DNA of 64,000 bases from Rhododendron vialii (lineage: Eukaryota; Streptophyta; Magnoliopsida; Ericales; Ericaceae): assembly GCF_030253575.1 (NCBI RefSeq), contig NC_080560.1:34895501-34959500 (forward strand), read 5' to 3'. The notes under the pieces are model-generated. The model had not been told where the DNA came from and searched no databases. It was given only the letters and a program-made list of their open reading frames with translations. Positions within the stretch are counted from its first letter, which is position 1. Every line of letters begins with the position of its first letter. Shown here one piece after another: positions 39,324-57,962 of this stretch. The translations under genes were made by a program, and so were the position numbers.

Positions 39324-42171
39324 ATGGGAAGGTATGGGTATGAGAACTAGATGGATTTTTCTTGAAATGTATCGTATAGATATTGCTGATGTAGTTGGAC
39401 TAATGGTTGAACCCTTGCCAAATATGGGTGAAAAGTTGAGCTTTTGTATTTGTTCTTTTATTGGCAAATGTTAATATTGTTAGAATTGTTAGATTAGATC
39501 TTGGGGTTCAGACATAGCTCCCATCCACTCTCAAGCAATCCAGTTGAGTTCAATTTTGGGCCGTTGTGGGCACTTGGTTAAACGAGTCAAACAGTTGTTT
39601 GTTCAAACTTGGTTTGATAAGATTTGAAAAGATAACGAGGTTTTTAAAAAGTATTTTGGAGCTTGGCTTGTTTATGAGATGAACGGATCCCAAACAGGAT
39701 TTAATAAACCAATCTCTAGTAGTTTGAATTTTTTAAGCTCTGTTTGGAACATATGGAAAAGAAAAGAAAGGAAAGGAAAAGAAAAATGGAGGAAAATAGA
39801 AGGGAAAAATTACTATTCACTGAACTTAAAATTTTTATTTTCTTCTCTCTTTCTCTCCCAATCAAACAATGGAAAGGAATTTTTTTTTAATTTTCCTTTC
39901 TTTTCGATAAGTTTCAAACAGAGCCTTATGATCATAGGTCAAACGCACAGAGCAGTAGTTTGTTGGAGCTTGGTTGGAAAGCTTTTTTTAAATTTTTTTT
40001 TTTATCAGTAGCCGGTCGGAAAGCATAACAAGTTTCAAAGAATGTTAAAAGTTTGGTTTGTTTATGTAACCAATCAATCTCAAATGAGCTTTTCACGAGC
40101 AGCCAACAAGAGTTCAAACTCGAGCAGTTTGATTCGTTTATAAGCCCTAATTAGAAGCTTGCTTACTATAGCACAGTTAGCACTTGCTGAGAAAGTTAGC
40201 TCTAGCTTGATCAGACACCGATGGGTCGACACCGTGGCACAAATAATTCTAGAGCTTACACCATTCATTGTTCTTGGAAAATGTTACCTTTTCACCTAGC
40301 TTAACATTCACGCTAATTTTCTTTTGGAAAGCATAAATTTCCTTGTGAGTGCTACGATAGGAACGGCTCCGATCATCGTAGTGTTCCTGAATGTGCCCAC
40401 AACGGCCCAAAATTGGACGGAATGGAGGCTAGACGGAAGTTGAGTTATTTTGGGTTCTAGCTCAACAAGATGTTCTTAGCACTTGGTGAATGTCTTTTTC
40501 TCGTTAATTACATGCTCTTGATTTGATCAATGAAACTAACTCTTTCGTAGTGTTGTCACTAATATGTAAATTTGGATGTACGTGTTTATTGTGCAAATTA
40601 CAAGCTCTGGTTGCAGAATGAATGTTTAATGATTAAATTTTTTGTTTCAATTTCTTCCTGATCCTTGTAGATGAGCTAGAGATACTCTATTATTCCATCT
40701 ATCTTAGTCTAGCTTTTACTTTTTGATGTCCAAACTCCAAAAAAAGACTGTCCATTTCAAAAAAGTCAAGGTGAAAATGGATAGTATTACTCTTCTAACC
40801 TTTCTTTTTTAATTAGTAATTATCAACTCAAAAGTGCAATCATGGTGAAAGGTATTATGAGAGATTTTTTTTCTTAATGTAATTATTGTGTTTCCTTAAT
40901 ACGTTAGATTTCCCAAAGCACACTAAGATTAACGGTGGGAGTAGTGTGTTCTCAAAGTCTTTGATACGTTTTCCTTTCTTTATTGTTAAGCCCCAATGAT
41001 TGGGGACTACATGGGTTCTGTTGTTGTGTATTGTTAAGCCCATGTTGTTTCCCCACGTAAGATGGGAGGTCTTCGATGTCCTTCACCTAGTGTCTTGTGT
41101 ATTCCTCTCTTTAATGCTGCACTGCTGCATTTCCACATGAGGTGGGCCTCATCTCATTGATGTGTTTTATTATGAAAATTCTTCGGGCTTCTGTGTATGT
41201 AAAGTTGATTTGTATATTCTTTTGGTTAACTAGAACAAACTTGGGCTCAAAGTCCAAAAGACATAAGCTTTCTAAGAAGCAGAATGTCATGCAAGGTGAA
41301 GATAGAATCAGCAACTTACCAGGCAACCTTATTAGCCGAATCCTATCTTCTCTTCCAACAAAAAGTGCAGTTGCGACAAGCGTCTTATCAAAGAGGTGGA
41401 AGCAAATCTGGACATTAGTCGCCAGTCTGGAATTTGATTGCCGGAAGGTATGCTTCCTTAATTCTCCATACTTCCACTTTCAGTTTGTCCAGTCAAAATA
41501 CTTGTGTTATTCTCAATATTTGACCAAGTGGAATGTTACGGTATGAAGCATGTTCAAGAGATGGATTCTGAGCTGCCAGTGTTTCCTAATTTGACTTCCT
41601 TGGTACTTGGTGCGGGCTATGTTGGATGGGAATGGTTATCACAATTCTTGGAGAAATCACCGTGTCTAGAGAGTCTTGTCTTCAAAGAGGTGTGCGGACT
41701 AGAGAAATTTCTTTTGTAAAACTTTCAGTCTATGGAACTTGCATTAACTCGTGCCCCACCTGATTTATAATCCAACAGGGGTATCAAAGTGAACACTATA
41801 GAGATGAATATTATGAAGAAGGAGACAGCGAGGGAGACGACAAGCCCTTGCTTTGCCATCCACCTGAGGATGTTCCTTCTTGTTTACGCTCGAACCTCAT
41901 GGTAATCAAGTTTGTGAACTTTCAAGGGGATGATGGGGAACTGAAAATGATGGAGTATTTTCTGAGGAATGCTAAAGTTTTGGAGAAGTTGTTGATACAA
42001 ACTGACGGAACTGTTGACGAATGTTTTGACATGGGAGCAGCGGGGTTGGCGGTTGCAGAACAACAGTTGGAGGTTACGACAAAACTTTTAATGTTACCAA
42101 GAAACTCAAAGACTTGTCAGATTGAGTTTGTTATTCGGCGTTATGACTTTTGTACCCGATCGTTCTACTGA
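39324..42171 (+). CDS. F-box/FBD protein, copy 1, lacking the LRR region
   Basis: Exons 39324-39331, 41234-41447, 41549-41689 and 41779-42171 predict 251 residues. Exon 1 is only ATGGGAAG and joins in phase 2, giving MGRTNLGSKSKRHKLSKKQN. The F-box follows at about residues 25-65 (EDRISNLPGNLISRILSSLP, then SVLSKRWKQIW). After SLEFDCRK the protein passes straight to DSELPVFPNLTSL and then the FBD region (PPEDVPSCL, VKFVNFQGDDGE, CQIEFVI). The LRR part found in copies 3 and 4 is missing. F-box proteins recruit targets to SCF ubiquitin ligases; FBD is of unknown function. The exon 3 acceptor (aag) is non-ideal but conserved in frame across all four copies. The frame is open throughout, so it may make a protein. 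Confidence 0.6.
39737..39924. mobile_element. MITE in intron 1 of F-box copy 1
   Basis: The ends are gctctgtttggaac and its inverse gtttcaaacagagc, with purine-rich and pyrimidine-rich arms in between that pair. Related elements lie at 47246-47451 and 48281-48481, with damaged ones near 44095-44345. The family is thus concentrated around the F-box cluster. Confidence 0.7.
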
Positions 42172-42702
42172 GTAGGCCCCGTTGTGTTTGGTTATGTACT
42201 AGTTTTTGATACCTACCCTTTCAAACTTGTTTTTTGGTGTTGGTAGCCATATACATTGCTGGTATCTTTTATGAGGGATGGACAGGAAGAAATAGGAATC
42301 CTGGTTTGATACTTGTTTTTTCAACCAACTTTTGCTTTATCTATACTTGGCTTTTCACTTATTCATATTATATACTTGGCTAATAACAGCTTCCGCACAA
42401 CATACATTTTACAAAAGTGTGTTACTATTTTGCGGATATAGCTGCCGACGCTTGCAAGGGAGCGGTGTAGCAATTATGCGATGAATAAATTCAATCATTT
42501 GCATTGGAATCATGAAGTTCGAAGTTTTCAAGTTGGGCGGTCGATGTTCAAACACCCGGGAACACCAATTGTGAGCATCATAGCAGTCAGTCGTCTTTGT
42601 ATTTGACTTGTCTCAATAAACATGTTCAGGCAAAAAATGGAAAAATTACAAAATACCACGTTCACATGTTCAAGCCGCGTGTAGGTCCATTAGCATCGAT
42701 CC

Positions 42703-42975
42703 GTACTACTTCTTCCGTCCCTTTTTAAATGTCCTGCTTCGTAACTCCAACTTGTTAAAAAGACATCATTATTATACATTTCACATCAACTTTTTCCTCT
42801 ATTTTTCCTACTTACCCATCATCAGTACACTTTTACTCACTAACTTTTTAAAATGGAATCTACTTTTAGGAATAAAATAGACAATACACCAACTTTTATC
42901 CACTAACTTTACAAAATGGACACTTATTAAGGGACAGCCCAAAATGAAATACTGGACTCTAAAAAAGGGACGGAT
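42703..42975. mobile_element. Stowaway-like MITE in the 3' flank of unit 1
   Basis: The ends are tacttcttccgtccc and gggacgga, with the same body as the copies at 31169 and 60213. Unit 2 lacks it at the matching place. It directly abuts the TRIM relic that follows, sharing the ggatata junction, so one inserted into or beside the other. Confidence 0.75.
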
Positions 42976-43255
42976 ATAAAGTTTCTACATGGTATCAGAG
43001 CGGGGCCCGTTCCACCCCATATTTTAAAAATTAACAATCCACACCCCACGATGACAGACCAACACAAAGGTTGCACGATGATAGGACCCAAAAAGTGGCC
43101 ACACGTGACAGACCTCAAATGCGGCTGCACGTGAGGGGGGGTTAAGGAAATAGAATCCCACATTGCTTGGGAGTGGAATGGGTGATCACTTAATAACATC
43201 TGGGACCTCTCCACTCATTGCCAATTGGTTTTGAGATGGATATAGAGTTTCTACA
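42971..43255 (+). mobile_element. TRIM-type LTR retrotransposon relic
   Basis: The sequence tggtatcagagc at 42990-43001 is the usual primer-binding site complementary to initiator methionine tRNA. It is preceded by the last bases of an LTR (tataaagtttctaca). After about 140 bp there is a G-rich polypurine tract (gaggggggg) and then a full LTR at about 43140-43255, ending with the same atatagagtttctaca. The LTR of about 115 bp contains cccacattgcttgggagtgg and ccaattggttttgagatgg. The internal region is far too short to code. The left LTR is truncated by the neighbouring MITE. Confidence 0.65.
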
Positions 43256-43457
43256 GGAGTAGTACATTTATGAGCCCTACACGATTGCAAAGTCATTGAA
43301 TACATACACAACAAAAACTAGTCCCCTAGCATACCTTATAAGCGAGGACCAATTTTTTCCTTCTGTATATCCTATAACATGATCGAGCAGAAAAAAGCTA
43401 ACATCCAAAACGATTGTGATTGTATTTAGATTATAGATATAGATACTACTGACATTA

Positions 43458-43902
43458 GAGCATCCCCCATTGTAATAAGCAAATGAATGTGGATAAGCAA
43501 ATTTAACAATAATGTTCAAAAAATACCCAACATTGTAATAAGTAAAGTTATAAGTTTTTTAGGAAATAACCAAATTTCACTCATTTCATAACCAAACTTA
43601 ACAATTTTTACCAATAACCAAAACTCAAAAATCAAACTCAATAACCAAATTCAATAACTCAAAAACACCCCATATTGGACTCGTCTCATCGAGAAAAATA
43701 ATTTGATGTGGTCGGGTGCGTGATTAGAACTCATTTACGATTGGATAAATGTGCATTGTGGGGGTTTTTTTTTGTTAGGAATGTAAAAATAACCAGTGTG
43801 GAGGTAGATGTTATTAAATTTGATTATGGACTAAATGGATAATCAAATGCTGACGTGATACATTTTGGTTATTGGTTTTGATTATTACCATTGCGGATGC
43901 TC
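43458..43902. mobile_element. PIF/Harbinger-like MITE with TTA duplication
   Basis: The ends are gagcatcccccattgtaata and the inverse tattaccattgcggatgctc (approximate inverse match). TTA lies on each side (43455-43457 and 43903-43905). Unit 2 has the empty site at about 47998-48010. The interior repeats ccaaa...tcaataacc motifs and has no coding capacity. Confidence 0.75.
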
Positions 43903-44094
43903 TTACTTGCAAAATATCAAAATATAGAGAAAAGAGAAAAATGTTATGAATTTCTAAGCAAAGTTTTTCAATTTTATATGCAAATGTTACGGATTGCTAT
44001 AATGAAGTTATAAATTTCTACAAACAAAAAGTAATGAATTCAAGGCAGTTTAAAAAAGAAAACTAGAAGAAAATTTCACAAAAATTTCACTCTG

Positions 44095-44345
44095 CACAAT
44101 ACTTGAGTTCCCGATTTTCTTCCCTTTTTCTTCTCAAACCAAACAATACATAGAAGAGTGATTTTCTTTATTTTCCCTTCCTTTTATTTTCCATAATTTC
44201 CAAACCAAGCCTTTATTAGGCTCTGTTTTGGAACTTTTAAAAAAGAGAGAATTTTAGGAAGGAAAGTGTTGAGGAAAAGGTATATTTTCTCCCCTCTAAT
44301 CCAAACAAAGGATTTTTATCCAAACCGACCCTTGTTTCAAAATTT
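44095..44345. mobile_element. Damaged copies of the gctctgtttggaac MITE family
   Basis: Two partial, head-to-tail pieces lie here. One ends with tttccaaaccaagccttta near 44215, and another starts ggctctgttttggaac near 44218. They sit between units 1 and 2, so this family may mark the duplication boundary. Confidence 0.5.
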
Positions 44346-44520
44346 GAATTTTAAACTTAATCGATCGGATTACATATAGGAGAAGCTGATACGACGTGAG
44401 TATAAATAAATACACACAGTAAAGTTCGAATAACATTCATTTCGTCAGTGGTGTTGAAAAAGCAAAACCCTAAAAGTCCTCCTCGCACGCCGGTAGCCGC
44501 CGCCACACCGCAGCCTTATC

Positions 44521-47033
44521 ATGGGAAGGTATGAGTATCATTTTCAAGGAACTAAATGGATATTGCTTCAAAGGTATCGTATATATACTGCTGATGTAGT
44601 TGGACTAATGGTTGAGCCCTTGCAAAATATGGGTGAAAATTGGAGCTCCCATCCACTCTCGATCAGTCCAGTTTAGTTCAGTTTTGGGCTGTTGTGGGCC
44701 CACTTGGTTAAACGTGCCCAACGGTTGATTGTTCGAACTTGGTTTGATAAGACTCGAAAAGATTATGAATTTTTTAAAAATTATTTTGGAGTTTGGCTTA
44801 TTTATAAGATGAACAGATCCCAAATGAGATTTAATCAACCAATCTCGAGTACCTTGAATTTTTTAAAGATGCACAAATCAGGATATTCGAGCTTGGTTGG
44901 AATTTTATATTTTTTATCTGCAACTGGTTGGAAAGCTTAACAAGTTTTAAAAAATATTAAAGTTTGGTTTGTTTAAAAAATTCAAACCGGAGCGGCTTGA
45001 TTCATTTATAAGCCCTGATTAGAAGCTTACTGACTTAGCACTTGCTTAGAAAGTTAGCTCTAGCTTGATCAGGCACCGATAGTTAAACACCGCGCGTGGC
45101 ATAAAGAATTCTAGAGCTTACACCATTCATTGTTCTTGGAAAATGTTACTTTTTCACCTAGCTAAACATTCCCACTAATTAGTTTTGGAAAGCATAAATT
45201 TCCTTGTGAGGGCTACGATTGGAACGGCTCCGATCATAATTATGGTTCCAGGATGAGCCCACAACGGCCCAAAAATAGACGGATTGGGTTCTAGCTTAAC
45301 AAGATGTTCTTAGTACTTAGTGAATATCTTTTTCTCCTGAATTATGTGCTATTGATTTGATCAGTGAAATGAACTCTTTCCTAGTGTTGTCACTAATATG
45401 TAAATTTTGATAAGTACCTGTTTATTGCGCATCTTACAAGCTCTGGCTGCAGAATGAATGTTTAATTATTAAATCTTTGGTTTCATTATCTTCCTTGTAG
45501 ATGAACTAGAGCATTTTAGATACTCTAATATTCCATCAATCTTTAGTCTAGCTTTTACTTTTTGATGTCCAAACTCCAAAAAAAGACATTTCAAAAAAGT
45601 CAAGGTGAAAATGGAATCTTCTAACCCTTTTTTTTAATCAGTAATTATCAACTCAACATGAATCAACTCAATAGTGCAATCATGGTGAAAGGTATTATGG
45701 GAGATTTTTTTCACAAAGTGTAATCATGGTGTTTCCTTACACTAAGATTAAAGGTGGGAGTAGTGTGTTCTCAAAATCTCTGATACGTTTTCCTTTCTCT
45801 TTTCTTAAGCCCATGTTGTTTTCCACATATAAGATGGGAGGTCTTCGATGTCCTTAGCCTTGTGCCTTGCGTATTCCTCTCTTTAATGCTGTACTGCTGC
45901 ATTTCCACTTGCTGCATTTCCACGCGCGGCGGGCCTCACCTCATTGATGTGTTTATTACGAAAATTCTCCGGACTTTTGTGTCTGTAAAGTTGATTTGTA
46001 TATTCTTTTGGTTAACTAGAACAAACTTGGGCTCAAAGTCCAGAAGGCATAAGCTTTCTAAGAAGCAGAATGTCATGCAAGGTGAAGATAGAATCAGCAA
46101 CTTACCAAGCAACGTTATCGGCCGAATCCTCTCTTTTGTTCCCACAAAAAATGCAGTTGCGACAAGCGTCTTATCAACCAGGTGGAAGCTATACTGGACA
46201 CTAGTCACCAGTCTGGAATTTGATTGCCCGGAGGTATGCTTCCTTGGTATTCCCTACTTCCACTTTAACAGTTTGTCCGATCAAAATACTAGTGTTATTC
46301 TCGATATTTGACCAAGTGGAATGTTCCGGTATGATTCGTATGAAGGATGTTCAAGAGATTGATTCTGAGCTGCCAATCTTTCCTAATTTGACTTCCTTGG
46401 TACTTGGTGCGGGCTATGTTGGATGGGAATGGTTGTCACAATTCTTGGAGAAATCACCTTGCCTAGAAAGTCTTGTTTTCAAAGAGGTGTGTGGACTTGA
46501 AGGATTTCCATTTGTAAAACTTCTAATCTTATGAAACTTGCATTAACTCGTGCCCTACCTAATTTATAATCTAACAGGGGTATCAAATTCAACACGATGG
46601 AGATGAATATGATGAAGAAGGCGACAACGAGGGAGAAGATGACAGCGAGGGAGAAGATGACAGCAAGGGAAGCGAGGGAGAAGACGCCAACGAGGGAGAG
46701 GACAAGCCCTTGCTTTGCCATCCACCTCAGAATGTTCCTCCTTGTTTACGCTTGAACCTCAAGGTAATTAAGTTTGAAAAATTTCAAGGGGATGGTGGGC
46801 TACTGAAAATGGTGGAGTATTTTCTGAAGAACGCTGAAGTTTTGGAGAAGTTGATAATACAAACTGATGGTACTGTTGACGAATGTTTTGATATGGGAGG
46901 AGCGGGGTTGGCAGTTGCAGAACAGCAGTTGGTGATCACGACGAAACTTTTAATGTTGCCAAGAGGCTCGAAGACTTGTCAGATTGAGTTTGTTATTCTG
47001 CGTTATGACTTTGATACCAGATCGTTCTATTGA
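44521..47033 (+). CDS. F-box/FBD protein, copy 2, lacking the LRR region
   Basis: Exons 44521-44528, 46020-46233, 46346-46486 and 46578-47033 predict 272 residues, starting MGRTNLGSKSRRHKLSKKQN. The F-box carries EDRISNLPSNVIGRILSFVP and SVLSTRWKLYW. As in copy 1, SLEFDCPE is followed directly by DSELPIFPNLTSL and the FBD part (CHPPQNVPPCL, IKFEKFQGDGG, CQIEFVILRYD). Exon 4 has an extra acidic stretch of Glu-Asp-Ser-Gly repeats between GYQIQHDGDEYDEE and DKPLLCHPP, produced by repeats of gagggagaagatgacagc. All frames are open. Whether the copy is expressed cannot be told from sequence. Confidence 0.6.
46614..46705 (+). repeat. In-frame coding minisatellite in F-box copy 2
   Basis: Variants of gagggagaagatgacagc are repeated about four times. 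They encode a Gly-Glu-Asp-Ser-rich stretch absent at this length from copies 1, 3 and 4. The repeat length is a multiple of three, so the frame is kept. Confidence 0.8.
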
Positions 47034-47245
47034 GTAGGCCCGTTGTGTTTGGTTATGTACCTACCCGTTTGAACTTGTTTTTTGGTGTTGGTAGTCAAAT
47101 AGTACTACATTGCTGGTACTGTATATGTTTGGCTTTTTGACGTGTTTCTTTTATGAGGTATGGACATGAAGAAATAGGAATCCTGGTGTGATACTTGTTT
47201 TTTCAACCAAGTTTAATGCAATCTATACTTTTGCATTTCACTTAT

Positions 47246-47451
47246 GCTCTGTTTGGAACTGTGGAAAGTGAGCGAAGGGGAAGAGAAAATATTATGAAGG
47301 AAAATGGGAGGAAAAGAAGGGGGAAATTTACTATTCCTAGAACTCTATTTTGCCATTTTCTCTTCTCTTTTCTCTCAAACCGAACAAGGGAAGGGGAAAA
47401 TTTTGAACTTCCCTTTTTTTCCCCTTCTTTTTCACATGTTCCAAACAAAGC
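47246..47451. mobile_element. MITE downstream of F-box copy 2
   Basis: The ends are gctctgtttggaac and gttccaaacaaagc; the purine-rich left half pairs with the pyrimidine-rich right half. It is in the same family as 39737-39924. Confidence 0.7.
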
Positions 47452-48280
47452 ATAGTCTCTTGGGCAAGAAGAGCTTTGGCACAACATACCTTTTAAACAA
47501 ATGTTGCCTACTTTGCACATATAGCTAACAAGGCTAGCGAGCGGTTTTATGCGATGAATAAATTCGTCAGTCATTTGAATTTGAAAGTCCAAGCATCATG
47601 AAGTTCAAAGTTTTTCAAGTTGGTGTGTTCGATGTTGAAACACGTGTGAACACCAAGTATGAGCATCATAGCAGTCGTATTTTGTACAGTTGACTTGTCT
47701 CAACGAGCATGTTCATGTCAAAAATGAAAAAAAAATGACAAAATAACGTGTTTGCATGATCAAGCCACTTGCAGGTCCATTAACATCAATCCATCCTTAC
47801 TGGAGTAGTACATTTATGAGTAGCACACGATTGCAAAATGCAAAGTCGTTGAATACATACACAACAAATACTGGTCCCAGACGTACCTTATAAGCGAGAA
47901 CTAGCTTTTTCCTTTTGTATATCCCAACATCAGAGAACAGAAAAAAGCCACTTGCATACAAAACTATTTGTGATTGCATTTAGATTAGAACTAATATTAG
48001 ATGCAACATATCAAAATATATAGAAAAGAGATTATAATGGAGGGAAAAAAAAACAGCAATACCTAAATTTTACTTACTAGTACTATTGCATAACATCGAT
48101 CTTGAATTCATAACATTTTCGCATTATGAGTTTACAGCAAGTAAAATGTTAGTGGTAGGAGCATGAATTTTTAAGAAATTTTTTTATTCAAATGTTCCGG
48201 ATTGCTATAATGAAGTTATAAATATACTAGTATAAATTTCTATAAACAAAAAGTAATGAATTCAAGGCAGTTTAAAATTA

Positions 48281-48481
48281 CTCTGTTTGGAACTTATGGA
48301 AAAGAAAAAAAAGAAAAGGAAAATTAAAAAAATTTCCCTTCCATTGTTTGGTTGGGAGAGAAGAAGAGAAGAAAATAAAAATTTTAAGTTCAGTGAATAG
48401 TAACTTCTCCCTTTCATTTTCCTCCCTTTTTCTTTTCCTTTCCTTTCCTTTCTTTTCTTTTCCATATGTTCCAAACAGAGC
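48281..48481. mobile_element. MITE between units 2 and 3
   Basis: The ends are ctctgtttggaac and gttccaaacagag, with paired purine and pyrimidine arms. It sits exactly between the end of unit 2 and the start of unit 3. Confidence 0.7.
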
Positions 48482-50046
48482 TAAAAATGGTTTTGTTCTA
48501 GTACTCCGTATTTCCTCTAAATTTATTTTTCCCTCCTTTTCCTTTTCCCCCCAGGTCCAAACAAAGCCTTAGTTCTAAAAAAAAGGAACTGCTTTTTGAT
48601 AACAGTGGTGATTAGCGCGATAATTAAGGATATTTGAACTTAATCAGATTAAGGAGAACCATAAAGTAAAACTCGAGAAACCCTTGCATTTCTTTCTTGC
48701 TTTCAAGTGTTGGAAAAGGGAAAACCCTACTCCCTCCTCGTCTCCTCGCATTATCTCTGACCGAACCGCCGCCGGCTGATGGACCGCCACCCACCGCCGT
48801 ACCGCGGCCTTCTCGCGGGAAGGTACGAGTATCATGTTTTCAGGAACTATACTGCGCCCTTTACTTCGGATACTGCTCCAAATGTATGTATAATGTTGAT
48901 TTAGTTTCATCAACTGTTAAGCCCTGGATGGAGTGAGCTACTACCACTCTCAGCACTAGTTTCATCACGGGATGGTAGTTTTGGGGCCTTGTGGGCCCAC
49001 TTGAACCCACAACGAGGATTAAAACTAGGGCTCGTCAGCGAGCCGAACGGTTGATTGTTTCAAACTTGATTTGAAAACTTGACGAGCTTTATGAATATGT
49101 TTGAGACGAACGGAGCTTTAATGAGTTGATCACCAACCAATCTTGATTAGCTTTTTAGTGGTCATAAGTCCAGAGCGCCAAAAAGTTGTTCAAAATTTGT
49201 TTGAAACATAAACAAACCGATCTCAAACGAGATTTTTAAGACGAACACAAGCTCGAATTCGAGTGGTTGGATTCGTTTATCCGCCCTAAATAGAACCTTG
49301 TTTACGATAGCCCTTGCTGAGAAAGTTAGCTCTAGCTTGATCAGACACCGATGGACCGCCACCCATCTATGGCACAAGTAATTTTAGGGTTTAAACTCTG
49401 CATTTTTCTTCTACAATGTTACTTTTTCACATCGCTAGGGGTATCCAATCAAAGTAAATTTCTCAATTAGGGACTATGATATGAATGGTTTGGTCATTGC
49501 TATGGTTCCCGGATGAGCCCAAAAAGGCTCAAAACTGGACGAAATTGGACAGATGGAGACTTGATGGGAGCTGAGTTGTCTTGGGTTCTAGCTCAATGAA
49601 TTATAATCCATTGATTTGATCAATGAAATGAACTCTTTCATAGCGATCTGTCACTCCTGAACAACTTAAGGTTAGAGATTGACCTAGAAAATTTATTTTT
49701 TGGCTGGTAAAAAGCTTTAGACCCAGGAATATATTATTGACGCGTTTGAGTACCTCTGTTGGAATGCTAGCATAAAATCATGTATTTGTAAGCAGCCGCC
49801 TGCAATGTTCTATTCATTCCATGCCTCTACCATGTTGTCGTTAATATGTACGTTTGTATTTAACTGTTTATTGCCCAACTTCCAAGCTCTGGCTGCTGTT
49901 GAATGCTTACCTATCAAATTGTTCTCAGATCCTTGTAGATGAGATAGAGCATATAGATACTCCCTCCATCCGTCAATCTTAGTCTAATTCTTTATATTTT
50001 GCTGCCCAAAAAGGAACGCCAATTTTGAAAATGTCATGGTGAAAGT

Positions 50047-50366
50047 GGATAATATTACTCTTCTACCCTTTTTTTTTTATTAGTAACTAACAACTCAACG
50101 TCAAGGGCTAGTGTATACTCAAAATCTCTGTTACGTTTTCCTTTCTCTACAGTTGATAATATTTCTCTTCTACCCTTTTTTTTTTATTAGTAACTAACAA
50201 CTCAACGTCAAGGGCTAGTGTATACTCAAAATCTCTGTTACGTTTTCCTTTCTCTACAGTGGATAATATTTCTCTTCTACCCTTTTTTTTTATTAGTAAC
50301 TAACAACTCAACTTCAAGGGGTAGTGTATACTCAAAATCTCTGTTACGTTTTCCTTTCTCTACAGT
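50047..50366 (+). repeat. Three tandem 107-bp repeats in intron 1 of copy 3
   Basis: Units 50047-50153, 50154-50260 and 50261-50366 are almost identical. Each runs from ggataatatt through caactcaacgtcaagg to ctttctctacagt. Each unit ends in ctttctctacag, a perfect-looking splice acceptor, so the array offers three competing acceptors about 210-430 bp before the real one at 50576. Copy 4 has a single unit at the corresponding place. Confidence 0.9.
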
Positions 50367-51082
50367 TAAGCCTGTGTTGTTTGCCCCGTATGTGAGAGGG
50401 GTTAGTATTTTGTGTTGTGAAACCTTCGCTTGGTGTCTTGTATATTACCTCTCTTTAGTGCTGCGCTGCTTTATTTTCCCACGAGGCAGGTGCCACCTGA
50501 TTGATTTATTTATTTTGCAAAATTTCCCCGATTTTTTGTTGATAAACTTGATTGGTATATTCTTTTGGTTAACCAGGGAACCCATGGGTTCAAAAGCGAA
50601 AAGACATAAGCTTTCTAAGGAGCGGAATGCCATGCAATGTGAAGATAGAATCAGCAACTTACCAAGCAACCTTATTGGCCGAATCCTCTCTCATCTTCCA
50701 ACAAAAATGGCAGTTGCGACTAGCGTCTTATCAACCAGATGGAAGCAATTCTGGACACTAGTCACCAGTCTGGATTTCGATGATAAGTTAATGCTTCAGC
50801 ATCGAACAAGTAACAGAGCTGCACTTCAAATGAGTTTTGCAAGTTTCATATACGGAGTGCTAGATAGAGTCTCGTGTTTGGATAAGTTCCGTCTCAAATG
50901 CTGCCAAAGTTATGATGTTTCACATGTGAATGCATGGGTTGCTGCTCTCATAAAATACCGTATCGAAGAACTTGATCTCTCGATTCCAGTGAAGCACTCT
51001 GCTAATCATGTGCTGCCTCGGGGCCTTTTTTCTTGTAGAACACTGGTGGTATTGAAATTGGGTACTAAGTTTATGCTTAATG

Positions 51083-52194
51083 CACTACAAGAAAAATGAA
51101 AATTAGTGACGAAAACGTGGCGATGAAATTTAATTTTGTCAATAAATGAGTATATTTGGCGACGAAAAAATAAATTCGTCACTATTTTGATAACTTTCGT
51201 GACGAAATAATTTCGTCACCAATTATGCCTGTTTAGCGACGAAAAAAATATTTTCGTCACTAAAGGTACCCATTTGGCGATAAAATACATTTTTCGTCGC
51301 CGAAAGCTTAAAACAGGTGACAAAATTATTTTTTGTCGCCAAAGATAATCATTTGGTGACAAAAAATATATTTCGTCGCCAAATGTGAGCAATTTAGTAA
51401 CGAAATATTTTTTTCGTCACCAAATGCTTAACTTTGGTGATGAAAAAAATTTTCGTCACCATTTTAATGCTTTCAGCGACAAAAAATATATTTCGTTGTC
51501 AAATGGGTACCTTTCGTGACGAAATTTATGAATTGCGCTTTGTCACTAAAATTTATTTCGGATATAACTCTTTACTAAAATTTCCGATTGAGATAATTCA
51601 AATTGGGTTTGAACAATAACTCAATTGCCTACAACTTTCATGTTTATCAAAGTTGCTAATTTTAATGTTTAAAGGTCCAAAATTACATTCGAAATATATT
51701 TTCATGTTAAACATATGTGTTATATATTAGATATTTCAAATATTTACTGAAAAGTGTGTGTAGTGCAGTTGGTTGGAGCTTGCGCGAAAAACTCAAGGGA
51801 CTCGGGTTCGAAACCCAGCAGGAGCAAGAAAGATGGATTTCTTTTCCCATATGAAAACAGCTTTCGCAACGAAAAATTTCGTCACCGATTTCTTATATTA
51901 GTGACAAAAAATTTCGTCACCAATGTGACCCATCGATGACGAATTTTTTCGTCGTCAAAAAGCACAATAAGTGAGGAAAAAAATTTCGTCACTAATTATT
52001 CACTTTTTGGTGACGAAATATTTCGTCATCAAAAGGCACTATAGGTGACGAAAAATAGATTTCGTCACCAGGTAGGAATCCTCGACAACCTTTAGTTGAC
52101 AATTTTTTTTTTCGTCACCTATATTATTTGTGACGAAAAACATGCAATTTGTGACGATTTTCATTCGTCACCCAATTGAATTTTTCTTGTAGTG
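51083..52194. mobile_element. Non-autonomous CACTA element with 3-bp duplication
   Basis: The left end is CACTACAAGAAAAAT, and the right end is its reverse complement, ATTTTTCTTGTAGTG with one base offset. ATG is duplicated on both sides (51080-51082 and 52195-52197). The subterminal regions carry many short inverted and direct repeats of gtgacgaaa and tttcgtcac, typical CACTA transposase-binding arrays. The element is 1,112 bp and has no transposase. It lies inside exon 2 of F-box copy 3. A tRNA-like module sits at about 51757-51828. Confidence 0.93.
51757..51828 (+). other. tRNA-like (A-box/B-box) module inside the CACTA element
   Basis: The stretch tagtgcagttggttggagc resembles a tRNA D-arm with A box, and cgggttcgaaaccc resembles a T-arm with B box. 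They are spaced as in a tRNA gene. The acceptor-stem ends do not pair, so this is not a functional tRNA gene. It is most likely a tRNA- or SINE-derived piece captured by the element. Confidence 0.5.
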
Positions 52195-53368
52195 ATGTAC
52201 CAGCTTTAGTTTGCCTACCGAGTCTCAAAATTCTCCATCTTGATAGTGTCCAATTTTCAAATGATGTCTCAATCAAGAGGCTCCTCCTTGGTTGTCCTGT
52301 GCTTGATGAACTGAGTATGAATGAATGCGTTGGAAAAGATGTACGTGTTATTCTCATTTCTGCACCAGTGCTCACAAAGTTGAGATATCATAACGAAAAG
52401 GAAAAATATTCTTTGCATAATGACTTTCTGGAAACTGCTGATGTTTCTGAGCACAAGATTGTGATTGATACCCCAGCTCTTCTACACCTGGAGCTGATTG
52501 ATGATGAAGCAGTGGTTTATTTAGGAAAGAACCTAAGTCATATCATTAAAGTTGATATTAGTATTGCAGTGTTATACGATGAAACTCATTCTAAATGTAT
52601 AACTGATCTTCTCATGGGAATATCTGAAGTCCAATCTCTACACTTGTATAATGATTGCCGAGAGGTATGCTTTTCTTAATTCCCCATACATCCTCTTTTA
52701 CAGTTGGTCCTGTTGGACTTCTCATGTTATTTTTGGCTATTTGACCAAGTGGAATTTTATTATACGAAGGCTGTTCACCGGATTGATTCTGAGCTGCCAA
52801 TTTTTCGTAATTTGACTTCCTTGGTACTTGGTGCGGGCTATGTTGGATGGGAATTGTTGTCACAATTGCTGGTGAAATCGCCGTGTCTGGAAAGTCTTGT
52901 TTTCGAAGAGGTATGTCGGCTGGAGAAATTTCCTTTGGAATTCAATCGTGTGGAACAATCATTAACTCACGACCTTCCTGATTTATTTACTGACAGGGGT
53001 ATCATATTGAACATGGTGAAGATGAATATGATGAGGAAGACGACAGTGGGGGAGATGATAAGCCCTTGCTCTGGCATGATTGGCATCCACCTCAGAATGT
53101 TCCTTCTTGTTTACCCTCGAACCTCAAGCTGGTTAAGTTTTTGAAATTTCGAGGGGGTGATGGGGATCTGCAAATGGTGGCGTATTTTCTGAAGAATGCT
53201 GAAGTTTTGGAGAAATTGATAATAGACTGCGAAAGTTATGGCGAAGAATTTGATGTTCCAGAAGACCAGTTGAAGATTACCGCAAAACTTTTAATGCTAC
53301 CAAGGGCTTCAAGGACTTGTCAGATTGAATTTGTTACTCCTATTTTGCGTCATGATGAGTCCGATTAA

Positions 53369-54234
53369 TTAGGCCCATTGTCATCGGAAGTACTACGTAG
53401 TTTTTAATTCCTAGCAGTTTGAACTTGTGTTACATTGTTGGTAGTCATATACATCGCTCGGATATGTCTGTTATTTGGTGTAAAAAATGCTGGAATCACC
53501 CACATTTGCACACACAAGTGCACAGACACACTCAGAAGGTGTGTGGAAGCTACTTGGTAAGGACTCATCGTGTGACGAAGGGGCTCATGGACTATAAAAT
53601 CTAGTGTATTAGTCATGAACATGTTGGATGGTTGGTGTACAAAATTTCTTGAACCACACTTGAGCAAACAAGTGCACAAACACACTCATCAGGTGTGCCG
53701 GGAAACTGTGTGCGGTTCTAGCACTATTGTTTCATGTACATCCTGTAGTCAGCCAGATTGTGAAAAAGGTTATGTATGCATGGCATATATTGCGAGCGTG
53801 TTTGCGCACTTGTATCTTCTTAGTATCTTCTCAGATACCATGCATTAAGAAGATTATTAAGAAAAAGTTGAACAAAGTGGGATAGACGGATATAAAGCTG
53901 GGCAAAAAGACACCATGTTGGAGAAAGGAAGAAACAACCATACTTAAGTATTTCACATAACATCGATCTTGAATTCATAACATTTTTGCATTATGAGTTT
54001 TTGCCTTGGTGTTATGAAATACAGTAAGTAAAAATTTTCGAATTTCTGTACCTCAGGGAAAGTGACAAAAATGAATTAAGAAGAAAAATTGGAGGAAAAT
54101 GCAATAAAAATTTAAGTAGGCAGAATACTTTTATTTTGTTTCCAACATTGTGCACAATACTTGAATTGATTTTTTTGCCCCCCGGTTTTACCTCTTAACC
54201 CAACAATGGAAGTGAAACTTTTTACTTTATTTCT
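53369..54234. other. 3' flank of F-box copy 3
   Basis: It includes short diverged direct repeats (cacacaagtgcacagacaca near 53512 and caaacaagtgcacaaacaca near 53666), followed by sequence matching the 3' flank of unit 2 (cataacatcgatcttgaatt). There is no separate gene. Confidence 0.45.
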
Positions 54235-54418
54235 CCGTCCTTTTGCTTTTCCCCCCAGTTCCCAAACAAGGGCTTAGTTCAAAAAACAGGAACTGCTTTT
54301 TGATAGCCGTGGTGATTAGCGCGATAATCAGATTTCCAAACAAGGACTTTTGAACTTATTAATCAGATTTCTTTCTTTCAAGTGTTGGAATCGTCTCTGA
54401 ACAAACCGCCGCCGCCCG

Positions 54419-57400
54419 ATGGACCGCCACCCACCGCCGTACCGCGGCCTTTTCGTGGGAAGGTATGAGTATCATGTTTTTCAGGAACTATACTGCGCCC
54501 TTTACTTCGGATACTGCTCCAAATGTATGTGTAATGCTGATCTAGTTTCATCGACGGTTCAGACCTAGGTGGACGGAGCTCCCATCCACTCTCAATCCGT
54601 CCAGATTAATCTAGTTTTGGGTCCTTGTGGCCCACTTGAAACCCACAACAACGATTTAAACTAGGGCTCGCAACAGTTGATTCACTTGATTGTTTCAAAC
54701 TTTGTTTGAAAACTTAACGAACTTTTTAAATATGTTTGAGCTTGACTTGGTTATGAGACGAACTGATTTTTTTTTTTTTTGGGTAAATAGACGAACTGAT
54801 TTTAAAGGAGCTTTAATAAAGTTGATCATGAACCGATCTGATTAGCTTTTTAATGGTCATAAGTCCAGCGCACCAAAAAGTTGTTCAAAATTGGTTTGAA
54901 ACATAAACAAACCGATCTCAAACGAGATTTTTAGGACGAACACAAGCTCGAACTTGAGTGGTTGGATTCGTTTATCCGCCCTAACTAGAACCTTGTTTAC
55001 GATAGCACTTGTTGAGAAAGTTAGCTCCAGCTTGATCAGACACCGATGGACCGCCACCCATCTATGGTACATGTAATTTTAGGGTTTAAACTCTGCATTT
55101 TTCTTCTACAAATGTTACTTTTTCACATCGCTACCGATATCCAATCGAGGTAAAAAAAAATTGGTAAGGATAAATTTCTCAATTAGGGGCTATGATATGA
55201 ACGGTATGGTCATTGTTATGGCTCCCGGATGAGCCCAAAAAGGCTCAAAACTGGACGAAATTGGACAGATGGAGACTGGACAGGAGCTGAGTTGTCTTGG
55301 GTTCTAGCTCACCATGAAGTTCTTAGTCGATGTCTTTTTTTTCCTGACCTGAATTATAATCCATTGATGTGATCAATGAAATGAACTCTTTCATAGCGAT
55401 CTGTCACTCCTGAACAACTTAAGGTTAGAGATTGACCTAGAAAATTTATTTTTTGGCTGGTAAAAAGCTTTAGACCCAGGAATATATTATTGACGCGTTT
55501 GAGTACCTCTGTTGGAATGCTAGCATAAAATCATGTATTTGTAAGCAGCCGCCTCCAATGTTCTATTCATACCATGACTCTACCATGCTGTCGTTAATAT
55601 GCACATTTGTATTTAACTGTTTATTGCCCAACTTCCAAGCTCTGGCTGCTGTTGAATGCTTACCTATCAAATTGTTCTCAGATCCTTGTAGATGAGCTAG
55701 AGCATATAGATACTCCCTCCGTCCGTCAATCTTAGTCTAGTTCTTTACATTTACATTTTGCTGCCCAAAAAGGAATGCCCATTTTGAAAAATTCATGGTG
55801 AAAGTGGATAAAATTACTCTTCTTCCCTTTTATTTTATTAGTAACTAACAACTCAACATCAATCAACTTAAAAGTGCAATGATGATCGAATTTATTAGGG
55901 TTTTTTTTAAACATAATCATGGTGTCTCCTTACAAGTTAGATTTCTCAAAGCAGACTAACATTGACACAAGGGGTAGTGTGTACTAAAAATCTCTGTTAT
56001 GTTTTCCTTTTGGGAGGTCTTGGGGGGAGGGAGAGAGAGAGAGGTTAGTGTTTTGAGTTGTGAAACCTTCGCTTGGTGTCTTGTATATTACCTCTCTTTA
56101 GTGCTGTGCTGCTTTATTTTCCCATGAGGCGAGCACCACCTGATTGATTTGTTTATTTTGCAAATTTTCCCCGATTTTTTGTTGAGAGAGAGAGAGAGAG
56201 TGGTTAGTGTTTTGTGTTGTGAAACCTTCGCTTGGTGTCTTGTATATTACCTCTCTTTAGTGTTGTGCTGCTTTATTTTCCCCGATTTTTTGTTGATAAA
56301 CTTGATTTGTATATTCTTTTTGCTAACCAGAGAACCCTTGGTGCAATGTGAAGATAGAATCAGCAACTTACCAAGCAACCTTATTGGCCAAATCCTCTCT
56401 TCTCTTCCCACAAAAACGGCTATTGCGACAAGCGTCTTATCAAAAAGATGGAAGCAATTCTGGACACTAGTCACCAGTCTAGATTTCGATGATAAGTTGA
56501 TGCTTCATTGTCGAAAGAGTATCAGAGCTGCACTCCAAATGAGTTTTGCAAGTTTCGTAGACAGAGTGCTCGAGAGAGTCTCATGTGTGGATAAGTTCCG
56601 TCTCAAATGCTGCCAAAGTTATGATGTTTCACATGCAAATGCATGGGTTGCTGCTCTCATAAAATATCGTATCAAAGAACTTAATCTCTCCATTCCAGTG
56701 AAGCACTCTACTGATCATGTGCTGCCTCGGCACCTTTTTTCTTGTAGAACACTGGTGGTATTGAAATTGGGTACCAAATTTATGCTCAATGTACCAGCTT
56801 CGGTTTGCCTACCCAGTCTGAAAATTCTCCATCTTGATAGTGTCAAATTTTCAGATGATGACTCAGTCAAGAGGCTCCTCGTTGGCTGCCCCATGCTTGA
56901 TGAACTGGGCATGAATGAATGTGTTGGAAAAGATGTATGTGTTATTCACATTTGTGCACCTGTGCTCACAAAGTTGAGATATCGCAGAGAGAAGAAAAAC
57001 TATTTATGGGGTACTGCTGAAGTTTCTGAGTACAAGATTGTGATTGATACCCCAGCTCTTCTATACCTGGAGCTGATTGATTATGTAGCAGATGTTTATC
57101 TAGTAATGAACCTAAGGAATATCGTTAAAGCTTATATTAGAATTGCAGAGCAATACGATGAAACCAATTCTAAAGCTATAACTGATCTTCTCATGGGAAT
57201 ATCCGAAGTCCAATGTCTACACTTGTACAATGATTGCACTGAGGTATGCTTAATTCTCCGTACTCTCTTTTACAGTTCATCCTGTTAAACTTTTCATGTT
57301 ACTCTCGGATATTTGACCAAGTGGAATTTTGTTATGTGAAGGCTGTTCAAAAGATTGATTCTGAGCTGCCAATTTTTCATAATTTGACGTCCTTGGTACT

Positions 57401-57962
57401 TAGTGCGGGCTATGTTGGATGGGAATGGTTGTCACAATTGCTGGCGAAATCGCCGTGTCTAGAAAGTCTTGTTTTTGAAGAGGTGTGTCGGCTAGAGAAA
57501 TTTCCTTTGGAAAACTTTCAATCGTATGGAACAATCATTAACTTGTGACCTTCCTGATTCATTTACTACCAGGGGTATCATATCGAATTCGATCGAGATG
57601 AATACGATGAAGAAGACGACAACAAGGGAGACGACAAGCGCTTGCACTGGAATCCACCTCAGAATGTTCCTTCTTGTTTGCTATTGAACCTCAAGGTAAT
57701 TATGTTTGTGAACTTTCAAGGGGACGACGGAGATCTGAATATGGTGGAGTATTTTCTGAGGAACGCTGAAGTTCTGGAGAAGTTGATAATACAAACTAAC
57801 GGTACTGTTGGCAAATGCTTTGACATGACAGCAGCGGCGTTTGCAGAACATCAGTTGGAGGTTACCATGAAACTTTTAATGTTACCAAGAGGCTCAAAGA
57901 CTTGTCAGATTGAATTTGTTATTCTGCGTCACAACCTAGGTGGTAGCGTATCGCCCTGTTAA
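54419..57962 (+). CDS. F-box/LRR/FBD protein, copy 4 (intact)
   Basis: Exons 54419-54462, 56331-57243, 57342-57482 and 57573-57962 predict 495 residues, a normal length for F-box/LRR/FBD proteins. Exon 1 gives MDRHPPPYRGLFVG and joins in phase 2 to REPLVQCEDRISNLPSNLIG. This exon start matters because the second-exon ATG of copy 3 is TTG here and 15 following codons are deleted. The F-box is at about residues 22-62, LRR-type repeats at about 100-330 (FRLKCCQS, LNLSIPV, LKILHLDSVKF) and FBD at about 410-480 (NVPSCLLLNLK, MFVNFQGDDGD, CQIEFVIL). All frames are open. F-box proteins of this class act as substrate adaptors of SCF ubiquitin ligases; the target is unknown. This is the most likely functional copy of the cluster. 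Confidence 0.78.
56025..56290 (+). repeat. Duplication of about 160 bp in intron 1 of copy 4
   Basis: The block ggttagtgttttg, then gaaaccttcgcttggtgtct, then ctgctttattttccc occurs at about 56043-56122 and again at 56202-56281. Each copy is preceded by a short GA run (56029-56041 and 56184-56199). The GA runs probably mediated the duplication. Copy 3 has only one copy. Confidence 0.8.

Follow-up and report, generated by a model that had tools for sequence, protein, structure and literature searches.

What becomes of a gene when most of its middle is lost in frame and the shortened version is then duplicated? The question is raised by a 64,000-nucleotide (nt) stretch of Rhododendron vialii DNA, here called the window (C4:34895501-34959500, on contig NC_080560.1), in which four F-box genes, referred to as copies 1 to 4, stand in tandem on the + strand at 39324-57962. 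The DNA belongs to a plant nuclear genome, as judged by its gene content, and a protein search against the window detected no F-box copy beyond these four. Each copy was modelled with four exons, all introns are GT-AG, and the frames are open over the four exons in copy 1 (251 aa), copy 2 (272 aa) and copy 4 (495 aa). Copies 1 and 2 share one internal deletion between the F-box and the FBD domain at the C-terminus. With a probability of about 0.62, we read them as young, weakly constrained genes for F-box/terminal-LRR/FBD proteins (LRR, leucine-rich repeat) in an array that evolves by birth and death.

The deletion is the same in both copies. An earlier note, made from the letters of this locus, had claimed that one in-frame stretch is gone from copies 1 and 2, and this is what was found: the junction GAATTTGAT/TGC is identical, lying at 41438/41439 in copy 1 and 46224/46225 in copy 2, and the reading frame is preserved across it. 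Differing breakpoints, which would have spoken against a shared event, were looked for without any being seen. The figure of 744 nt given for the missing part holds relative to copy 4, in which the two GATs end at 56490 and 57234 (248 codons further on); relative to copy 3, the GAT-GAT distance is 759 nt after discounting a 1112-bp insert and one copy of its target site. As had also been proposed, GAT bounds the deletion. The microhomology, however, amounts to three bases (four, TGAT, at most), and three or more are expected by chance in about one of 20 junctions by our own arithmetic; so short a match is insufficient to prove a repair pathway. The insert in copy 3 is a CACTA-like element inside exon 2 (51083-52194, 1112 bp) with CACTACAAGAAA ends, ATG target-site copies and an internal foldback. 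Copy 4, for its part, is short of 45 nt in exon 2 (56331-56362) coding for a basic stretch around RHKLSK (possibly a nuclear signal), which is present in copies 1 to 3. Neither copy is therefore a clean full-length reference.

In the alignment of the four copies, 315 of 343 informative sites group copy 1 with copy 2, while the other two groupings receive 15 and 13, and in all 11 stretches with informative sites, introns and flanks included, the first grouping outnumbers either of the others. When exon 2 of copy 1 was searched against the whole of the window's own assembly (532.6 Mb, 13 contigs), 21 matches were obtained. Four of them cross the junction, namely copies 1 and 2 and their counterparts 1' and 2' in a second array; 13 stop exactly at the junction (query position 205) and four stop earlier. 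Since the exact junction is common to copies 1 and 2, the informative sites group them and the same junction recurs in 1' and 2', chance as the origin of the shared junction can be excluded on this comparison, and the history put forward in the earlier note, one ancestral deletion and then a tandem duplication, is well supported.

The second array lies 67-69 kb downstream in the same genome. It belongs to a pair of head-to-tail block copies on C4, at 13233-75139 and 75140-143748 (window coordinates continued downstream; L009-L016), whose pieces, where aligned at 400 nt or more, are 87-99% and mostly 92-98% identical. The second unit contains copies 1' to 4' and a fifth full-length F-box/FBD gene, 5', that is absent from the first. 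Copy 2' is intact, with 272 aa, and copy 3' has an empty site where the CACTA-like transposon sits in copy 3. Copy 5' shows a separate, shorter loss in the same basic stretch as copy 4. Copy 1' has TTG as its start codon, has lost its stop and carries in exon 2 an insert of 670 bp (109750-110419, continued coordinates) with TG...CA ends, by its looks a solo long terminal repeat; the codons behind the insert are still open. A true tandem duplication of the block seems likelier than a false duplication of haplotypes, because the join at 75139/75140 is clean and N-free, the fifth gene is found in one unit only and the transposon in the other. An assembly error in the window was considered as the source of the junction and rejected: the window and its neighbours downstream, 144 kb when joined, contain no run of N, and the junction is seen again in the second array.

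From these comparisons we infer an order of events. A single in-frame event would have taken 744-759 nt, from one GAT to another, out of an F-box/LRR/FBD gene in a tandem array; by our reading of the LRR motifs, the strand after the F-box (SLDFD) would then have been fused to a point just behind the matching strand (LHLYND) of the tenth unit. A tandem duplication of the shortened gene would next have produced copies 1 and 2, followed by duplication of the entire array as a block of 62-69 kb, the lesions of copy 1' and the entry of the transposon into copy 3 coming last. Copies 1, 2 and 2' would have stayed intact under weak purifying selection while copy 1' decayed.

What did the deletion remove? 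A Pfam scan of copies 1, 2 and 4 places the F-box (PF00646) at 34.4, 28.3 and 34.9 bits, respectively, against a cut-off of 20.5, and the C-terminal FBD (PF08387) at 53.8, 49.4 and 48.3 bits against a cut-off of 22. With both domains above their cut-offs and four open exons in each copy, the short F-box/FBD proteins that had been predicted for copies 1 and 2 stand as described. The statement that they are without the LRR part, on the other hand, was too strong. It is true that the LRR match (PF24758, cut-off 27) falls below the threshold in copies 1 (18.8 bits) and 2 (16.8 bits) and passes it in copy 4 (71.7 bits). The deletion takes residues 69 to 316 of copy 4, in which strand motifs of the LRR type, read by eye, start at residues 64, 103, 131, 158, 180, 206, 229, 260, 281, 310, 336, 361, 408, 436 and 480; by our reading, nine of about 14 units would be gone, with the last units and the FBD remaining. 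Because exon 3 and the FBD exon carry these last units, and because in copy 4 the LRR profile of AtMIF1 runs through the FBD (residues 103-451), we read copies 1 and 2 as probably shortened at the F-box end rather than LRR-free. A sequence search of the PDB with copy 4 gave one meaningless match (E 1.6). Exon 4 of copy 2 also holds, at 46623-46697, an in-frame tandem expansion of acidic codons with periods of 18 and 27 nt, which is found in copy 2' as well.

Are the shortened copies maintained by selection? Copies 1 and 2 differ by 35 indels over 1621 nt of intron but by a single one, of 63 nt and in frame, over 748 nt of exon (Fisher p 3e-5), and even if only one of the two copies were neutral, the probability of at most one exon indel would be 0.003. 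The ratio of nonsynonymous to synonymous change (dN/dS, or omega) between them is 0.45 (0.26-0.76) by the Nei-Gojobori method on 251 aligned codons. In our own codon model, the tips that follow the deletion have an omega of 0.58, different from 1 (p 0.043) and similar to that of the other branches (p 0.72); with nine copies the values are 0.60, p 0.036 and p 0.44. Copies 2 and 2' differ at 10 of 811 exon sites and 50 of 1674 intron sites, a lower density in exons (p 0.008). When 37 neutral substitutions were simulated, no stop arose in 17% of runs, which puts the chance of both copies staying stop-free at about 3%. Pseudogene lesions (broken frame, start or stop, splice sites) are present in copy 1' and in none of copies 1, 2 and 2'. 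Taken together, copies 1 and 2 appear to be coding and under weak constraint, much like their full-length neighbours.

Several results nevertheless weigh against this reading. On the 224 codons common to the four copies, the Nei-Gojobori omega is 0.53 (0.32-0.96), with an upper bound close to 1. No correction was applied to the p values near 0.04, and 0.05 is missed both when the copies are tested separately (copy 1, p 0.19; copy 2, p 0.17) and in subsets of the nine-copy fit (recent tips, p 0.30; middle branches, p 0.07). The differences between copies 1 and 2 show no excess at third positions (25, 20 and 29 at the three codon positions, p 0.44), and their density in exons equals that in introns (74/748 versus 174/1621, p 0.56). 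The exon-intron comparison yields no difference in copies 1/1' (p 0.58) or 4/4' (p 0.83), and the recent codon changes between copies 2 and 2' are seven nonsynonymous to three synonymous. The FBD and the F-box are the fastest parts in nonsynonymous rate between copies 1 and 2. Finally, the unit count depends on motifs read by eye, and the sole structure model (copy 4 exon 2, five-row alignment) was useless, with a mean pLDDT (predicted local distance difference test) of 33, and was discarded. A dN/dS below 1 for copies 1 versus 2, as opposed to the value near 1 that, together with a lack of transcripts, would have told against the earlier note, was obtained, albeit weakly.

The absence of a third-position excess and the equal densities in exons and introns are also what one would see if the short copies were drifting leftovers, open because they are recent and without a selected function. 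This explanation is less probable than weak constraint but deserves to be taken seriously. Copy 1', with its start and stop gone and its exon 2 interrupted, would be an example of such drift, although the codons behind the insertion stay open, and lineage-specific F-box genes are described, in the relevant part of one survey, as having relaxed selection that overlaps that of pseudogenes (PMC3030570). On the other hand, drift alone would hardly produce the scarcity of exon indels, an omega below 1 in both codon-model fits, or two stop-free copies.

Another possibility, raised in the earlier note, is that the short copies act as competitors, occupying SKP1 without bringing a substrate and so damping the full-length copies or other SCF complexes. 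Natural competitors of the microProtein type keep the interaction domain, lack the effector domain and inhibit a full-length relative. In Arabidopsis, F-box decoys are said to be built the opposite way from copies 1 and 2, with the F-box dropped and the substrate-binding part kept, but reportedly share the idea of a truncated F-box protein that acts dominantly. The F-box above its cut-off, the loss of most LRR-type units with the LRR match below its own, and the intact frames would all suit a competitor. However, it is not the F-box that is conserved. Within the Pfam F-box, nonsynonymous changes between copies 1 and 2 number 10.5 where 7.0 are expected (p 0.10, upper side; small counts), omega is 0.73 over 55 codons (95% interval 0.23-2.93), and copy 2 has four derived changes within the F-box match, three of them common to copy 2'. 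For the FBD match, omega is 1.08 (small counts). The most conserved part is exon 3, where 8.9 nonsynonymous changes would be expected and 3.5 are seen (p 0.018, lower side; small counts). A pure competitor would need neither exon 3 nor the FBD, both of which were retained. Since exon 3 is the conserved part and the F-box is not, the idea of a selected SKP1 competitor finds no support, and the pattern of constraint does not appear to favor a role resting on the F-box alone. We consider a competitor unlikely, and slightly more unlikely still the version in which the compact F-box/FBD protein created by one in-frame deletion was kept by selection and duplicated as a brake on its full-length neighbors in the array. 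If copies 1 and 2 are instead young, weakly constrained genes, their proteins, we infer, would be made, would dock on SKP1 via the F-box and would present the short surface of the FBD end, and they would serve as small or altered receptors, not as dedicated competitors. Most likely, the copies behave as young, lineage-specific F-box genes do generally: coding, weakly constrained and easily lost.

How unusual is such a loss in this genome? A genome search for the FBD gave at least 100 matches (150 of 190 candidates scored), nine of which lie in the two arrays. Outside the arrays, the first 40 by rank of 91 matches were examined for an upstream F-box, using a profile built from the array copies and widened once. 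Among these best 40 of 91, an F-box was found within 3.8 kb upstream at 34 loci, and at six none was found with this array-built profile. At 33 of the 34 loci, F-box and FBD are 1030-3497 nt apart; at the remaining one, L023 (C6:40771276-40775363), the gap is 576 nt. Compared to its neighbor L041, L023 is missing about 630 nt in the later LRR region. Its F-box and LRR/FBD part are in different frames, and an intron may lie between them. Its breakpoints differ from those in the array, and the deletion appears to be independent. Deletions of the LRR region thus occur elsewhere, but the one in the arrays, in frame and kept, has no counterpart among the best 40 of 91. That copies 1 and 2 lost the region independently, at a deletion-prone site flanked by the short GAT repeat and in a family with another LRR deletion in L023, was rejected as highly improbable, given the identical junction with its neighboring shared bases, the grouping of the two copies along introns and flanks, the recurrence of that junction in 1' and 2', and the different breakpoints and frames of L023.

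The case fits the known background of plant F-box genes. According to the parts of PMC3030570 that deal with them, FBX proteins that carry an FBD or LRR-FBD module are common in seed plants, and lineage-specific F-box genes are less constrained and more reliant on tandem duplication; the function of the FBD is called unknown in a passage of PMC9777894. Copies 1 and 2 resemble the FBX proteins so described in their N-terminal F-box (PF00646), C-terminal FBD (PF08387), tandem arrangement and weak constraint (PMC3030570, in part). What differs here is that a single internal, in-frame deletion accounts for the unrecognized LRR, and that relatives which were not shortened adjoin. In an FBD cluster on wheat chromosome 3B, domains have been lost or gained by members, with unequal crossing-over and local duplication as the probable cause, and binding of the truncated proteins to SKP1 was left open by the authors (as stated in portions of PMC8002965). 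The two loci are alike in being F-box/FBD clusters with domain loss among their members; according to the same portions, some wheat members are without F-box or FBD, whereas copies 1 and 2 retain both and lack the middle. Domain loss within plant F-box clusters was thus already known (PMC8002965, in part). A literature search on LRR-less F-box/FBD genes or F-box competition found no paper, and one on truncated F-box proteins and SKP1 sequestration returned two poxvirus reviews only. Overall, the case is tidy but fairly ordinary for a fast-evolving gene family. Its one junction, traceable through two rounds of duplication, makes it a handy test case rather than a surprise: with the unshortened relative adjoining, it offers a clean natural before-and-after pair in which to ask whether an F-box protein minus most of its LRR-type units keeps a role.

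Table 1. Coordinates of the four F-box copies and the deletion junctions, numbered from the first letter of the window.
Feature	Position	Strand	Basis or exons
Copy 1 exon 1 (ATGGGAAG)	39324..39331	+	gene model, GT donor
Copy 1 exon 2: basic N-terminus, F-box, deletion junction	41234..41447	+	gene model, Pfam
Copy 1 deletion junction GAT/TGC, break after 41438	41436..41441	+	junction comparison
Copy 1 exon 3: LRR-type units still present	41549..41689	+	gene model; units read by eye
Copy 1 exon 4: acidic linker, FBD, C-terminus	41779..42171	+	FBD 53.8 bits
Copy 2 exon 1	44521..44528	+	gene model
Copy 2 exon 2: basic N-terminus, F-box, junction	46020..46233	+	gene model, Pfam
Copy 2 deletion junction GAT/TGC, break after 46224	46222..46227	+	junction comparison
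Copy 2 exon 3	46346..46486	+	gene model
Copy 2 exon 4, including 63-nt in-frame acidic expansion	46578..47033	+	gene model, alignment
Copy 3, CACTA-like element within exon 2	48779..53368	+	exons 48779-48822, 50577-52664, 52770-52910, 52997-53368
Copy 4, F-box/LRR/FBD, 495 aa	54419..57962	+	exons 54419-54462, 56331-57243, 57342-57482, 57573-57962
Copy 4 stretch absent from copies 1 and 2, 744 nt	56491..57234	+	junction comparison

An inverted pair of 149 nt (90% identical), which looks like a small transposon, is formed by 39756-39904 in intron 1 of copy 1 and 48309-48457 upstream of copy 3. Intron 1 of copy 3 contains, at 50044-50366, a 107-nt unit repeated three times in tandem. Compared between copies 3 and 4 (48823-50576 versus 54463-56330), intron 1 has a K of 0.088, while exon 4 has 0.216, intron 2 0.179 and intron 3 0.116; that intron 1 is closer than exon 4 or intron 2 suggests gene conversion or a mosaic history.

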